Positions 20,198-25,498 of a stretch of DNA of 64,000 bases are shown piece by piece. The position numbers were made by a program, and so were the translations under genes. The stretch comes from Bacteroidetes bacterium 43-16. GTDB taxonomy: Bacteria; Bacteroidota; Bacteroidia; Chitinophagales; Chitinophagaceae. The notes under the pieces were generated by a model that was not told where the DNA came from, did no database searches, and was given only the letters and a program-made list of their open reading frames with translations. Position 1 is the stretch's first letter, and the number at the start of each line of letters is the position of its first letter. The DNA lies in contig MKTB01000020.1 in NCBI GenBank assembly GCA_001897525.1, positions 1 to 64,000 on the forward strand. Reading direction: 5' to 3'.

Positions 20198-20671
20198 ATG
20201 ATACCAACATTTACCGTCCCCGAATCTTTACATTATATCGTGGAGCATCATAAGGCTTTTATTGAAAAAGTATGTGCTGCAGAGCTGGTCTATACCCTGA
20301 AGAATGAAGAGGGCTATGTATCTTCGGCCTGCAACCTGATGGAGGACGATGAAGGTGTCCCCTATGATAAAATGTGCTTCTGGTCGGACAAGGCGCTGGC
20401 GGAGAGTTGTATGGTAGCAGAATGGCAGGATTGCCGGGTGGATATGATCCCTTTAAGCACTTTTATAGAAAGCTGGTGTATAGGTATGAGCAGTGAAGGC
20501 CTGATTGCCGGTACCGAAGCTTCTGCTGAAGGCATCGGTTTTGAAATTGATCCGCTGGAACTTATTCTTGAGCTTGCAGCTCAACTGGAGCACACAGGAA
20601 AAAGTATTCAACTGGAAAAGTTTAAGGATATCAATGAACTGGTACAGCAGATCAAAGATATTTTATCCTGA
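20198..20671 (+). CDS. DUF2750 domain protein
   Basis: 157 aa, acidic and soluble. It matches DUF2750: an N-terminal helix HYIVEHHKAFIEKVCAAELVYTLKNEEGYV, then DKMCFWSDKALAESCMVAEWQDCRVDMIPLSTFIESWCIGMSSEGLIAGTE. Function is unknown. It follows recN after 14 bp and precedes a strong terminator, so it ends the ctlX-recN transcription unit. Confidence 0.75.
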   Translation: MIPTFTVPESLHYIVEHHKAFIEKVCAAELVYTLKNEEGYVSSACNLMEDDEGVPYDKMCFWSDKALAESCMVAEWQDCRVDMIPLSTFIESWCIGMSSEGLIAGTEASAEGIGFEIDPLELILELAAQLEHTGKSIQLEKFKDINELVQQIKDILS

Positions 20672-20731: not shown

Positions 20732-20776
20732 AAAATGTAAATAGCAGTTAATCGTATTAACTGCTATTTACATTTT
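20732..20776. terminator. Bidirectional terminator between DUF2750 and response regulator genes
   Basis: Perfect 20 bp stem: 20732-20751 pairs with 20757-20776 around a 5 nt loop. A- and T-rich flanks serve both converging genes. Confidence 0.92.
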
Positions 20777-20804: not shown

Positions 20805-21266
20805 TCAGGATAATAGTTTTTGTCTTAATAAAAATTCAAGTTGCTCATTTGAAAGAGAAAGTTTCTCGTTCATCTGTTTGATTTTCTCTCTTTCCAGGTA
20901 GATACCATAAGCCCTTTCAATGGTTTGTTCCAACTCTTCTTCACTCCATGGTTTGGTCAGGTAATGAAAGATCTGTCCCTTGTTCACCGCTTCTACCAAT
21001 GCACTCATATCAGTATATCCCGTAAGTAATATACGTATTGGATCTGTATATTTATGTAAAACCTTCTCCAGAAATTCAGTCCCCGTCATATTAGGCATTC
21101 TCTGATCTGTAATGATAATATGCACGGTATTTTCCTCTAATATCTTCAATGCTTCTTCCCCTCCTATGGCCGTAAATATTTTGTATTTAAGGCGAAAGGT
21201 AGCTTTGAATGAAATTAGATTATTTTCCTCGTCATCAACGTATAATATAGTTATTTTATCCGACAT
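20805..21266 (-). CDS. Response regulator, REC domain with coiled-coil tail, no output domain
   Basis: 153 aa from ATG 21266. The receiver domain is complete: acidic pair in LYVDDEENN, phospho-acceptor Asp in IIITDQRMPNMTG, Thr/Ser in ILLTGYTD, Lys in HYLTKPWSEEEL. The tail (about 120-153) is a charged helix, LEREKIKQMNEKLSLSNEQLEFLLRQ. There is no DNA-binding, GGDEF or HD-GYP domain, so the output is probably protein-protein. It follows the 7TMR-DISM kinase gene after 132 bp on the same strand and is its likely partner. Confidence 0.9.
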   Translation of the reverse strand: MSDKITILYVDDEENNLISFKATFRLKYKIFTAIGGEEALKILEENTVHIIITDQRMPNMTGTEFLEKVLHKYTDPIRILLTGYTDMSALVEAVNKGQIFHYLTKPWSEEELEQTIERAYGIYLEREKIKQMNEKLSLSNEQLEFLLRQKLLS

Positions 21267-21398
21267 CAAAATCAATTAAATCATTAAGAAGTTAAACGAT
21301 CTGTTATGTAAAGTTAAGGGAAATACTGAAATAACAAAGATTTCTACGCTTTTTCATTTTCCTCATTATGCAATATATAACATTTCATATTATTACAT

Positions 21399-23543
21399 TT
21401 AATTATTGTTTGTATTTAGTTTAATAGTAAAAACGGTGCCTTCATTTTTTACCGAATCTACCAATATAGTTGCATTGTGTTCTTTAATAATAGAAAATAC
21501 GATAGACATACCGAGTCCCATGCCCTCTCCTACTTTTTTGGTGGTAAAGAAGGGTTCATATAATTTAGATAAGGTCAACTCGTCCATACCTATACCATTG
21601 TCTTTGATCATGATACATATGGTATCCTCACCTTCAGAATAAGTGCTGATCTCCAGCCGTCCGCCCTCTTCGTTGCCATGCCGCTCCCTGATGGCACCAA
21701 TGGCATTGGTAATGATGTTCAGGAATACCTGGTTAAGCTTCCCGGGATAGCAAAGGATCTGGGGGCATTCTTTTAAATCTTCCACTAAGGTAATCCCATG
21801 AAGCAGGTTGTTGACAATGACCAATGTGGACCTGATACCATCATTGACATCCGCCGCTTTTAATTCTGCCTCGTCTACACGGGAAAATACGCGCAGTCCT
21901 TTCACAATCTCAGCAGTGCGGGTGGCACCATCCTGGATACCGTTCAATAAAAAGCCTATTTCTGTTTTCAGGTAGTCGAGGTCTTCATCGGATTTAAACT
22001 GGTCTATTTCCTTTTTCTTAGACTCTGTAGTGGTGTCATCTTTTAAACCGATAGACTCGATTTTTTCAAGTGCGTCCAGCAAAGCCTTGAAATCACGTCT
22101 TAAAGGACTCACATTTGAGGCCACGAAATTGATGGGATTGTTGATCTCATGGGCAATACCTGCGGTCAGTTGACCCAAGGAAGACATCTTTTCTGCAATC
22201 ACCAGTTTTGATTGTGCCTGTTTCAGGTCCTCATAAGTTTCATTCAGTATATCGTTTTTAAGTACCAGCTCTTCTGTTCGTTTATTGACCTGTTCTTCCA
22301 GGTGTATATTTTGCTCTTTCACGATGCGGGTATTCTCCCGGGCAAGTCTGAGTGCCGTTCTCCGGGAATTTTCTTTTTCTTTTTCCAGGATATTGATCCG
22401 GCTGGCCAGGGCGAGTGATAATAAGGTCATTTCGATGGCAGAGCTCAATTGCACGGAGTAATTGGTGAAGGTGCTGTATTTAAGGATACCATAGTTATAC
22501 AGCAGGTAGATAATAGAGCCTGCAATCAATTTACACCAGGCGACCACAAAATAGACGACGGAAGCTTTGCGGCTTTTTCTGAATACATAGATAGAAACCA
22601 TCAAAGCGATGAGTGCGCCTACAGTGGTTGCATTCCTCATGAACAGGAAGGAAAGCTGCCTGCTGAAAGGAATCAATATGATACTGACACCAAAGGGAAT
22701 TAAGGCAAGTATGATCAGTTTATTCAGTATCGGGAAGTCTTTCTTCAGGTTGAGGAACTGCCGGGTGAACAACAAACCTGCGGCACCGCTGAGGGAAGCA
22801 AAGAGCACCATCCCGTGCTGTTCAAAAAAGGGTGTATTGGGCCAGAAATATTGGAAAGCGATACCCTTTAACATCAACTGCGTAATGCCTGCAAAGCAAA
22901 TGAACATTACGTAGTAGAGATAACTACTGTCTTTTACCGAAGCATAGATAAAAAAGTTGTAGGTGGCCATGATGAGTACCAGCCCGAAGTAGATCCCGTT
23001 CAGCCAGTTTTTCTTCAACATTTCTGCCAGTTGTGCATTGGGCAGGTTGACACTTACGGGCAGGATCAGCGGCTGCTCTCCTTTTATCCTTACATAATAA
23101 ACAGTGGCTTGTGTGTCTTCCTGGTCCAGCCTGAAGACAAAGTCTGAACCTTTATGTTTGCGCACGCTTAAAGGTTGATCCTTCGTGAGTAATTGTCTTT
23201 TAAAGGTATCTGAGTCCTGGGGTTGCCAGAATAATTCGACTTCATCAAGAGTCGGATTATCCATATATAATACAAAAGATGGCGTGAAACTGTTGTTCTT
23301 AATGAGCAGTTTCAGCCATACACTGTTTTTATGGGTACCAAAGTTAGGTACTTCACTTTCTACCGGTTCAAATGCAGCACTCCTTGCTGTTTCAAAAGGA
23401 ACTTCTGAATCAGGCATGAATACCTGCAGGCTTTTCCCTACAAGATGACTGGAGGCACTGTCCAGCAGGATAACAGGCTGATCTTTGGCATAAGTTTTCA
23501 GGCAAAAAAGAAGCAGGAAAAAAACAATACAGTTGCGTAACAT
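21399..23543 (-). CDS. 7TMR-DISM sensor histidine kinase
   Basis: 714 aa. Signal peptide (1-19); periplasmic 7TMR-DISM extracellular domain (about 25-165, with NFGTHKNSVWLKLLIKNNS and YYVRIKGEQPLILPVSV); seven transmembrane helices (about 183-385); a coiled coil (about 390-455) and kinase core with H box LTAGIAHEINNPINFV, N box QVFLNIITNAIGAI, G1 IKDNGIGMDE and G2 GEGMGLGMSIVFSII. DISMED2 domains are thought to bind carbohydrate or other small ligands. It lies 57 bp after a methyltransferase gene and upstream of a lone REC protein, so signal recognition and relay are encoded together with two enzymes. Confidence 0.93.
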   Translation of the reverse strand: MLRNCIVFFLLLFCLKTYAKDQPVILLDSASSHLVGKSLQVFMPDSEVPFETARSAAFEPVESEVPNFGTHKNSVWLKLLIKNNSFTPSFVLYMDNPTLDEVELFWQPQDSDTFKRQLLTKDQPLSVRKHKGSDFVFRLDQEDTQATVYYVRIKGEQPLILPVSVNLPNAQLAEMLKKNWLNGIYFGLVLIMATYNFFIYASVKDSSYLYYVMFICFAGITQLMLKGIAFQYFWPNTPFFEQHGMVLFASLSGAAGLLFTRQFLNLKKDFPILNKLIILALIPFGVSIILIPFSRQLSFLFMRNATTVGALIALMVSIYVFRKSRKASVVYFVVAWCKLIAGSIIYLLYNYGILKYSTFTNYSVQLSSAIEMTLLSLALASRINILEKEKENSRRTALRLARENTRIVKEQNIHLEEQVNKRTEELVLKNDILNETYEDLKQAQSKLVIAEKMSSLGQLTAGIAHEINNPINFVASNVSPLRRDFKALLDALEKIESIGLKDDTTTESKKKEIDQFKSDEDLDYLKTEIGFLLNGIQDGATRTAEIVKGLRVFSRVDEAELKAADVNDGIRSTLVIVNNLLHGITLVEDLKECPQILCYPGKLNQVFLNIITNAIGAIRERHGNEEGGRLEISTYSEGEDTICIMIKDNGIGMDELTLSKLYEPFFTTKKVGEGMGLGMSIVFSIIKEHNATILVDSVKNEGTVFTIKLNTNNN

Positions 23544-23600
23544 ATTCTATTAATAAAAGCAGCAATTTACATTTTTAAACTATACACTGTTCAGTGCCTG

Positions 23601-24365
23601 CTATTTTATTCCTGTAGCCACAACTAAATTTAAGGACAAGGCAAAATGTCCGTTCTGATCTGCTTCCTGCAGCGTTTTATTCCAGGCTTCATGCTCTTCT
23701 GTAGTCAGCAGCTCACGCTCCAGCATCTGGGCCAGGATATAGTCCAGCCTGGTGAAAGCGATCACCTGCTGTAAGGAGTGAGATACCAGCGGATATACAT
23801 TGAACTCGATATCCCGGAAACCCGTTTGCAGCAATAAGGTGTCCAGCTCTAAAGCCACGGAACCATTAGCTACATTATGATTGGCATAAAAATCTTTTAT
23901 CCGGTTGGCCATACCAGGAAGGCCGCAATAAAGGCTTATGCTGCTCCAGTCTGTCTCCACGATCACCAGGGAGGCTCCAGGTTTCAGAACCCGGTTAAAT
24001 TCCCTGAATGCCTGTAAGGGATCGTGTACATGCTGTATTAATCTTTCATTTCTGAGGCCATGAAGTGCTTCATGATCAAAAGGCAGGTCTTCCACATTAG
24101 CTTTCACAAAAGCTACTTTTTCCATACCCTGGGCAAGTTCCTCTGCCTTCCGGATCATGGCATCTTCAATATCTACGCCAGTCACCTTTACATTACCCGG
24201 TATTAATTGAGCTAAATTAATTACATCCTGTCCTGTACCACAACCTATATCTGCAATGTGTCCCTCTTCGATATTCAGGAAGCGTTCATAGGATTTTTCT
24301 TTGATCTCTTTCAGTAATTGCGTTGTCTTTTCTAAGTATTCTATACTATACAAATTAGAACTCAT
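23601..24365 (-). CDS. Class I SAM-dependent methyltransferase
   Basis: 254 aa. SAM-binding motif I is HIADIGCGTGQDVINLA (about 34-50), followed by VTGVDIEDAMIRKAEELA (motif II) and VAFVKANVEDLPFDHEALHGLRNERLIQHVHDPLQAFREFNRVLKPGASLVIVETDWSS. This is the UbiE/Methyltransf_11 type that usually acts on small molecules. The substrate is unknown. It lies 27 bp downstream of the GNAT-like gene and 57 bp upstream of the 7TMR kinase, all on the minus strand, which suggests that the methylated product relates to the neighbouring GNAT product. Confidence 0.88.
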   Translation of the reverse strand: MSSNLYSIEYLEKTTQLLKEIKEKSYERFLNIEEGHIADIGCGTGQDVINLAQLIPGNVKVTGVDIEDAMIRKAEELAQGMEKVAFVKANVEDLPFDHEALHGLRNERLIQHVHDPLQAFREFNRVLKPGASLVIVETDWSSISLYCGLPGMANRIKDFYANHNVANGSVALELDTLLLQTGFRDIEFNVYPLVSHSLQQVIAFTRLDYILAQMLERELLTTEEHEAWNKTLQEADQNGHFALSLNLVVATGIK

Positions 24366-24392
24366 ATATAAACCGGTTTGTGTTTTGATTAA

Positions 24393-25157
24393 TTATTGTG
24401 CAAATTTAGCGGTTACTTCCTGTAAATTCCATGCGCTGATATTAGGTATGGCAATATCATAGTGAATTTCAATTTGTTTTTTACGTAAGGTTTCTACGCG
24501 CACGGCATTGACATTGTTCCTCAATTCCAGAATGGAGATCTTATCTTCTTCGGAAGCAGAATCTGCACTTTCAATATCGCTATAAAACATGGAGGTGGCT
24601 ACGAAGCCTTCGCGCGGGTAATAAAAGGTACCCTGGTCTCCTAAACGGTCATCAACTCTGTAGCCTATGCTCTCTGCCAGCTTTACCGTATAGGGTGCAC
24701 ATAGTGCAAATAATGTTTTGATCCCGATCTGGGAAGAGATAGCAACACCCACACGGGACAGGAATATACTGCCTACGCCATAACCGGCTATTTCCCTGGA
24801 ATTCCATAAGCCGCAACCCTCTCCGGTGCCTTCCAGGGCACATTCTTTTACCAGGTCACAGATCCGCGGATCATAACGGCCAATGGCTTCTTCTACCGGT
24901 AAAGGTTGTGTACCGCCGGCTACATGGATCCTTGCTCCACCATACAGTTTGGTCTTATCCAGTGATTCTACCACGATCACAAACACTGCCGGGTTCTTCA
25001 CCCATTCGTAATTGGCAGAAGTGACCATTTTTAAATTGTATACCTCCAGAACATGTTGATGTCCTTCTATGAATCGCATACAGGTATCCGGATCATCTAT
25101 CGCACGAAATGCCCTAAGTCTGACTTGAGGAATTTCTCTTTCTAAATTATTATCCAT
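24393..25157 (-). CDS. GNAT-fold acyltransferase-like protein, family not identified
   Basis: 254 aa. A GNAT-like core is visible: FVIVVESLDKTKLYGGARIHVAGG (strands 2-3), then GSIFLSRVGVAISSQIGIKTLFALCAPYTVKLAESIGYRV, which reads as the acyl-CoA-binding strand-loop-helix followed by the motif B strand and helix. The insert between these (GRYDPRICDLVKECALEGTGEGCGLWNSREIAGYG) is reminiscent of the arrangement in acyl-homoserine-lactone and N-acyl amino acid synthases, but this is shape similarity only. It heads the methyltransferase / 7TMR kinase / response regulator set. I cannot assign a substrate. Confidence 0.6.
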   Translation of the reverse strand: MDNNLEREIPQVRLRAFRAIDDPDTCMRFIEGHQHVLEVYNLKMVTSANYEWVKNPAVFVIVVESLDKTKLYGGARIHVAGGTQPLPVEEAIGRYDPRICDLVKECALEGTGEGCGLWNSREIAGYGVGSIFLSRVGVAISSQIGIKTLFALCAPYTVKLAESIGYRVDDRLGDQGTFYYPREGFVATSMFYSDIESADSASEEDKISILELRNNVNAVRVETLRKKQIEIHYDIAIPNISAWNLQEVTAKFAQ

Positions 25158-25498
25158 CTTTTATTCCTCTGGAACTAAAATTAGTTTAATGATTAAAACC
25201 TGAAATGCATGTAGCGGTTTTGGTAAACAAAACACCACATGCATTAATTATTAAATAAATAGTTGGGTGCAGAATGCTTTTATCTCAACATTAAGGTATG
25301 CGTGGTAGCAGGAATGTACTGTCAATTCTCCAGGTTATAAGAGGCTATTGGTGAGTCTTGGTCATTTTACGTACATTCCAAATGTACCACTTTTCAATGA
25401 ATAATTAAAAGATACCGGCAAGAATTAATAAGAATACAACACAAATACTAAACCTATTTCTTCTTTTAAAATGTGCAACTTGCCGGTATCTGCATTGA
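25158..25498. promoter_or_regulatory. 341 bp regulatory region upstream of the GNAT-like gene
   Basis: No gene. It holds a hairpin at 25204-25245 (AATGCATGT with ACATGCATT, nested GTTTTG with CAAAAC). Three copies of the half-site AATGTAC/GTACATT lie at 25313-25319, 25371-25377 and 25381-25387, the last two forming the palindrome GTACATT-CCA-AATGTAC. A minus-strand -7 box TACATTTG (25379-25386) sits inside that palindrome. A 13 bp inverted repeat, AGATACCGGCAAG, pairs 25410-25422 with 25479-25491. Read from the minus strand this gives a leader of about 215 nt for the GNAT-like gene. Confidence 0.5.
25410..25491. terminator. Long inverted repeat after the T9SS Ig-like gene
   Basis: AGATACCGGCAAG (25410-25422) and CTTGCCGGTATCT (25479-25491) are perfect complements 56 nt apart, starting 8 bp after the stop at 25499. 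It probably ends the minus-strand transcript, although the large AT-rich loop is unusual for a simple terminator. Confidence 0.5.

Follow-up and report, generated by a model that had tools for sequence, protein, structure and literature searches.

Do four neighbouring genes of a Bacteroidota genome build a small molecule, modify it and perceive it? This question is raised by a minus-strand unit in the window analysed here (the whole stretch of 64,000 nucleotides of contig MKTB01000020.1, Bacteroidetes bacterium 43-16), in which genes for a GNAT-like protein, a methyltransferase, a 7TMR-DISM histidine kinase and a REC-only protein follow one another. The preliminary description had proposed a candidate small-molecule signalling system from this gene order. 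The idea comes out stronger than it was proposed, being supported by the fold of the GNAT-like protein, by a tailoring enzyme in all 111 mapped loci, by a kinase in 104 of them, and by the joint exchange of the tailoring enzyme and the kinase's sensor half. We consider the locus to be a self-contained cell–cell signalling system, the signal of which would be a tailored N-acyl amino acid, with a probability of roughly 0.68. The genes, whose open reading frames (ORFs) were all confirmed at the positions originally reported, and the two halves of the kinase are as follows.

24393–25157, minus strand: GNAT-like protein, predicted N-acyl amino acid synthase (LuxI/FeeM fold), 254 amino acids (aa)
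23601–24365, minus strand: class I S-adenosylmethionine-dependent methyltransferase, the tailoring enzyme here, 254 aa (Pfam Methyltransf_25, 1.7e-19)
21399–23543, minus strand: 7TMR-DISM histidine kinase, predicted receptor, 714 aa (DISMED2, 7TM, HisKA, HATPase_c)
22344–23543, minus strand: sensor half of the kinase, about residues 1–400, co-exchanged with the tailoring enzyme according to tree counts
21399–22343, minus strand: kinase half, about residues 401–714, untied to the tailoring enzyme according to tree counts
20805–21266, minus strand: REC-only response regulator, predicted relay (Response_reg, 8.7e-20)

The gaps within the unit are 27, 57 and 132 bp, as had been stated. The grouping of the four genes holds, while the span initially assigned to the unit, 21266–25491, does not, because it leaves out the REC gene. 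The latter has two possible starts: an ATG giving 20805–21266 (153 aa) and a TTG extending it to 21275 (156 aa).

In sequence searches, the GNAT-like protein (hereafter, the synthase) matched no Pfam or NCBIfam family at E ≤ 1 and no PDB sequence at E ≤ 10, and membership in the LuxI family by sequence is thereby ruled out. Its AlphaFold (AF2) model, with a predicted local distance difference test score (pLDDT) of 92.9 and a predicted template modelling (TM) score of 0.90, was compared with known structures by Foldseek. Ranks 1–12 were occupied exclusively by N-acyl homoserine lactone (AHL) synthases or FeeM (BjaI, FeeM, MesI and RpaI), which is the comparison with LuxI/FeeM folds that had been suggested as a check. 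A LuxI-type fold is indicated by BjaI at rank 1 (E 2.4e-7, TM score 0.54 by query), and a FeeM-like fold by the FeeM chains (2g0b) at ranks 2, 6, 7, 10, 12 and 15, with TM scores of up to 0.75 by FeeM length and 14–15% identity in the structural alignment. A published structure search for the acyltransferase TyzA yielded the same two structures, FeeM and BjaI. Judging from the model, the label "GNAT-like" holds by fold only, and the fold is of the AHL synthase/FeeM type, the closest among the structures, and not that of a housekeeping family; the unrelated housekeeping role, which the preliminary description had set against its own proposal, was not borne out. Among the matches listed for named species, the synthase is most similar to a protein of a Taibaiella metagenome-assembled genome (93% identity).

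The occurrence of the synthase and the genes around it were then surveyed. In even draws of genomes, relatives of the synthase were found in 31 of 298 genomes (21 of 140 genera) of the order and in 76 of 395 genomes (44 of 196 genera) of the class Bacteroidia; the genomes of named species hold at least 517 relatives, the best 80 of which were kept. The 111 mapped loci consist of the window, all 30 other order-level matches (the synthase of L073 was located by tblastn and added by its coordinates) and these 80, which, being the closest matches, are rich in Sphingobacterium. Every one of the 111 loci has a tailoring enzyme next to the synthase. It is a class I methyltransferase in 38 loci, a ThiF protein alone (about 360 aa) in 35, a ThiF-nitroreductase fusion (about 770 aa) in 29 and in one more that is cut by a contig end, an ICMT-type methyltransferase in 4, and a flavin adenine dinucleotide (FAD) oxidase in 4; these types were named by Pfam and NCBIfam on representatives and the remainder by similarity to those. 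The tailoring gene lies directly after the synthase gene, and thus adjoins the kinase gene, in 91 loci. The kinase follows in 104 of the 111 loci, and five of the seven misses are at contig ends (L055, L057, L058, L135 and L144). A random association of the genes is excluded by these counts. The proposed association stands for the synthase, a tailoring enzyme and the kinase; it does not stand for the methyltransferase as the invariant partner, which was ruled out by its presence in only 38 loci. Several tailoring enzymes can take this place, the methyltransferase being one of them. Twenty further class-level loci were picked from the 76 so as to cover different families, a choice made before their surroundings were inspected: all 19 readable ones have a tailoring enzyme and a kinase, 16 being of the ThiF type and 3 of the methyltransferase type. 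In L190 (7035–8476), two tandem synthase-type genes precede the kinase, behind one ThiF-nitroreductase gene.

The model of the window methyltransferase (pLDDT 92.4) has mostly small-molecule methyltransferases as fold neighbours. They are mixed, including the carboxyl methyltransferase JHAMT at rank 17 and enzymes acting on other positions, and the methylated atom is therefore not fixed by the fold. For the ThiF-type enzymes, the relevant family is that of Rv1355c, or TrzS, by which N-acyl tryptophan is cyclised and desaturated; its acyltransferase partner TrzA is Rv1356c, and the TrzS family has been shown to be active on N-acyl amino acids (PMC12856293). The ThiF-nitroreductase protein of L031 scored 768.1 bits against the family cut-off of 476, and three ThiF-only proteins scanned scored 444–465 bits, slightly below the cut-off. 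The window's own genome contains two weak partial TrzS-family matches, none over the cut-off, and an oxazolone pathway there was ruled out on this ground.

A kinase that perceives the tailored product should have a sensor that tracks the tailoring enzyme, whereas no such tie is required of its kinase half. The changes of tailoring type, scored in four states so that any tree requires at least 3, were counted on trees of the separate parts of the locus. Left out of the 102-row trees were the 7 kinase-less loci, L147, whose kinase lies in two frames, and L121, in which a contig end truncates the kinase. For the 120-row trees, 18 of the 20 class-level loci were added, without L185 (no synthase ORF called) and L187 (kinase cut); these trees contain two ThiF-type duplicates (L181 = L123 and L183 = L150), which were removed in a thinned set of 105; one synthase tree leaves out L057–L060. 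Three features were found. One is that the counts differ sharply between the parts: for the 102 loci, 3 changes were needed on the 7TM tree and 3 on that of the whole sensor, versus 18 for the kinase half and 17 for the synthase, and 16 were needed on the tree of a REC-kinase protein (a 93-locus subset; see below). When ThiF and ThiF-nitroreductase were split, the values became 6 for the 7TM domain, 12 for DISMED2, 9 for the sensor, 21 for the kinase half and 20 for the synthase. The 7TM, kinase-half and synthase values were 3, 22 and 20 for the 120 loci and 3, 21 and 19 for the thinned 105; on starred branches only (120 rows), the methyltransferase label required at least 1 change versus 7, the 7TM value being given first. 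Another is that the boundary is sharp. When 96 methyltransferase and ThiF loci were scanned in windows of 60 residues, the kinase gave 2–4 changes within residues 1–180, 1 each from residue 151 to 420, and then 12–18, which places the boundary at about residue 400, just past the 7TM domain (ending at 382) and the last membrane helix. The REC-kinase protein, in windows of 80, gave 11–14 changes throughout. The last feature is that the four unrelated enzyme types have one sensor clade apiece on the 7TM tree of the 120 loci.

By the 7TM domain, the nearest neighbour was of the same tailoring type in 120 of 120 cases, close pairs being excluded or not. By the kinase half, it was so in 98, and in 70, 62 and 54 when pairs with identities of 80, 70 and 65% or more were excluded, type frequencies alone predicting about 59; for the thinned set, the figures were 105 of 105 versus 80, 58 and 45. 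With 51 rows (40 Sphingobacterium loci and 11 hand-chosen), a single methyltransferase clade was rejected with p 5e-6 on the kinase half and p 2e-23 on the synthase, and on the 7TM tree these loci already form one clade. The sensors of three later-fetched methyltransferase loci, L186, L191 and L193 (family codes f26, f55 and f33; window, f1), fall inside the methyltransferase clade (40 rows; Shimodaira–Hasegawa-like approximate likelihood ratio test, SH-aLRT, 99), and the nearest rows to their kinase halves are of the ThiF type. Within 37 methyltransferase loci, identity of the enzyme correlated with that of the 7TM domain at 0.94, DISMED2 at 0.96, the kinase half at 0.73 and the synthase at 0.89. 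With 3 changes on the 7TM tree against 22 and 20 on the others, the tailoring enzyme and the sensor half are exchanged together, a pattern visible in the trees, and this is stronger evidence than gene order.

The exchange can be followed at close range in Sphingobacterium. Among the 780 pairs of 40 loci, those with different enzymes share 26–39% identity in the 7TM domain and 57–91% in the kinase half; pairs with the same enzyme share 44–100% in the 7TM domain. S. paucimobilis HER1398 carries the methyltransferase and S. tabacisoli h337T the ThiF enzyme, in flanking DNA that is mostly 94–100% identical. Between them, identity begins to drop midway through the synthase gene, stands at about 43–58% across the tailoring gene and the sensor, and is back to about 77–82% in the kinase half.

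From the gene arrangement, the fold resemblance and the co-exchange, which are established here, we infer acylation, a site of methylation, a product with its export and binding, phosphotransfer, density dependence and a cell–cell role. In the system so envisaged, the LuxI/FeeM-fold enzyme would acylate an amino acid with a fatty acyl group, as fold and context suggest, and the neighbouring tailoring enzyme would modify the N-acyl amino acid. The window methyltransferase would plausibly form a carboxyl methyl ester, which would mask the carboxylate as cyclisation does; in relatives, the ThiF-type cyclase, whether or not it has a nitroreductase half, may yield an acyl-oxazolone as TrzS does, judging from its family. 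The DISMED2/7TM half of the kinase would recognise the tailored product, and the kinase would pass phosphate to the REC proteins and, in most relatives, also to the REC-kinase protein. Specificity would shift by joint exchange of the tailoring enzyme and the sensor half, while the synthase, the kinase half and the relay stay, so that every tailoring enzyme would define one chemical dialect of a common precursor.

Several observations weigh against this reading. The fold match of the synthase is moderate (TM scores by query of 0.46–0.57 and identities of 10–15% in the top 12), and general GNATs appear from rank 13 (E 8e-6). The synthase does not co-vary with the tailoring enzyme, requiring 11–13 changes in every window, by which a co-varying C-terminus was also ruled out. 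DISMED2 alone needs 5 changes for the 102 loci, not 3, and over all 120 loci the 7TM identities of same-type (27–100%) and different-type (26–49%) pairs overlap. The window's unit lacks a DNA-binding output. The distribution is patchy, three of three other genomes of the same genus searched being without the synthase. Finally, in L059 and L060, whose synthases are among the most divergent, the synthase and its partner (an FAD oxidase or a ThiF-nitroreductase) truly lack a neighbouring kinase, and hence the two enzymes can occur in the absence of a receptor.

The main rival explanation, which we hold to be unlikely, is that the tailoring gene and the sensor DNA move together merely through adjacency, with no match to a ligand, the crossover points being supplied by the conserved DNA of the synthase and the kinase half. 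Passive co-transfer is possible given this adjacency, which is seen in the 91 loci mentioned above, among them the methyltransferase loci, where the enzyme gene directly follows the synthase gene in 38 of 38; the recovery of identity on either side of one block in the S. paucimobilis/S. tabacisoli pair fits it as well. Yet a crossover between the tailoring and kinase genes, or within the sensor, would separate an enzyme from its matching sensor, and none was seen, although the windows of residues 1–180 do give 2–4 changes. The absence of mismatches in the 120 nearest-neighbour tests and the single sensor clade of each of the four unrelated enzyme types argue against hitchhiking as the whole story, and are no proof of binding.

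The match of enzyme and sensor is equally predicted if the kinase monitors the product, a membrane lipid or an antimicrobial lipopeptide-like compound, for homeostasis or self-protection and not for signalling between cells. The acyl-oxazolones are mainly intracellular, N-acyl tryptophan being extracellular, and N-acyl tyrosines are antimicrobial (PMC12856293), both of which speak for such a role; repeated exchange between near-identical strains, however, fits the diversification of a signal's specificity and not homeostasis, and we judge this explanation likewise improbable. It is very improbable that the kinase responds to a stimulus without relation to the enzymes and has stayed close to them through chance or shared regulation. 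Sensors of a related type can react to metabolites, glucose-6-phosphate being named for SagS in the title of PMC8544897, but the kinase is present in 104 of the 111 loci and its sensor type tracks the tailoring enzyme. Moreover, only two 7TMR-DISM_7TM proteins, including the locus kinase, are encoded in the 4.73-Mb host genome, and this scarcity, together with the recurrence in related genomes, shows that the arrangement exceeds chance.

The favoured signalling system resembles several known ones in part. LuxM/LuxN, like the present locus, has an acyl-amide signal synthase adjoining a multi-pass sensor kinase, and probably differs in both the synthase family and the sensor. LuxN is treated in PMC8895600. 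The acyl-oxazolone pathways TrzAS and TyzACB of Mycobacterium and Rhodococcus share a LuxI/FeeM-fold acyltransferase beside a ThiF cyclase and a nitroreductase-type oxidase, a likeness borne by relatives such as L031, whose enzyme exceeds the Rv1355c-family cut-off. The window differs in carrying a methyltransferase and in a genome without a TrzS over the cut-off, and a kinase is absent from the pathway text of PMC12856293. The N-acyl amino acid synthases FeeM and NasY share the fold, and NasY genes neighbour ThiF, nitroreductase and methyltransferase genes; identity to FeeM is low, as given above, and the account of NasY describes no receptor kinase (PMC12479983). The phc operon encodes a methyltransferase, a sensor kinase, a REC-plus-kinase protein and a REC protein (PhcB, PhcS, PhcR and PhcQ; PMC8578825), an order found in many relatives. 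The phc methyltransferase itself makes the signal, methyl 3-hydroxymyristate, there is no LuxI/FeeM-fold synthase, and the window has no REC-kinase protein. In ComQXPA of Bacillus subtilis, the signal genes and the N-terminal membrane half of ComP vary between pherotype groups (PMC4008528). As there, a signal-making gene and a sensor half are exchanged here and the cytoplasmic kinase half is conserved; the ComQXPA signal is a peptide, whereas here unrelated tailoring enzymes swap on a small molecule.

The kinase itself contains 7TMR-DISM_7TM (7.6e-45), 7TMR-DISMED2 (1.6e-19), HATPase_c (1e-19) and HisKA (3.6e-5; 24.2 bits, below the cut-off of 26.9). Its catalytic residues H465, N609, N613, D648, G650 and G652 are kept in at least 97% of 102 relatives, and D11, D12, D54, T82 and K105 of the REC protein in at least 97% of 90. 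DISMED2 (residues 20–170, about 23034–23486 in the window) varies fast even within one tailoring type: its mean identity in same-type Sphingobacterium pairs is 49%, versus 76% for the kinase half. This variation perhaps reflects finer signal differences, such as the acyl chain. The relay described at the outset is in need of refinement, since 95 of the 111 loci add a REC-HisKA-HATPase protein, which is missing from five loci that belong to Taibaiella or lie closest to it, the window and its four nearest neighbours (L071, L073, L074 and L090); no full-length relative of it was found in the window's own genome. A second small REC (about 130–145 aa) often follows the REC-kinase gene (L038, L044, L053 and others), alongside which the REC of about 154 aa is often divergent.

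Beyond the REC gene, the unit probably ends at one feature.

20732–20776, listed for both strands: 20-pair hairpin with T-rich tails from the terminator scan, likely a shared terminator

Across it, a gene for a DUF2750 protein (20198–20671; 4.5e-25) converges on the REC gene. No hairpin was listed by the scan of the three gaps inside the unit. A sigma-70 promoter scan gave 9 matches versus 14.0 in shuffled sequence, and a Bacteroidetes-type promoter motif was rejected with 3 occurrences versus 2.35 expected and none upstream of the synthase.

We consider it somewhat more probable than otherwise that the locus represents a cell–cell signalling system widespread in Bacteroidota, where one conserved synthase of N-acyl amino acids supplies unrelated, swappable tailoring enzymes (methyltransferase, oxazolone cyclase, ICMT-type methyltransferase or FAD oxidase) and the kinase's sensor half is co-exchanged with them. 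The open-licence literature gave no account of a 7TMR-DISM quorum receptor, or of acyl-amino-acid or oxazolone signalling in Bacteroidota, that matches it. The near-identical Sphingobacterium strains with different enzymes and sensor halves are natural test pairs, in which one can examine directly whether a receptor matches its product. What acyl-oxazolones do in bacterial physiology has been called a major unresolved question (PMC12856293); here, relatives of the enzymes that make them sit, in many Bacteroidia, beside a candidate receptor of their own. If the proposed system is real, acyl-oxazolones would gain a function and a receptor, and the chemistry of a small-molecule signal would be switchable through the exchange of an enzyme-plus-sensor cassette.

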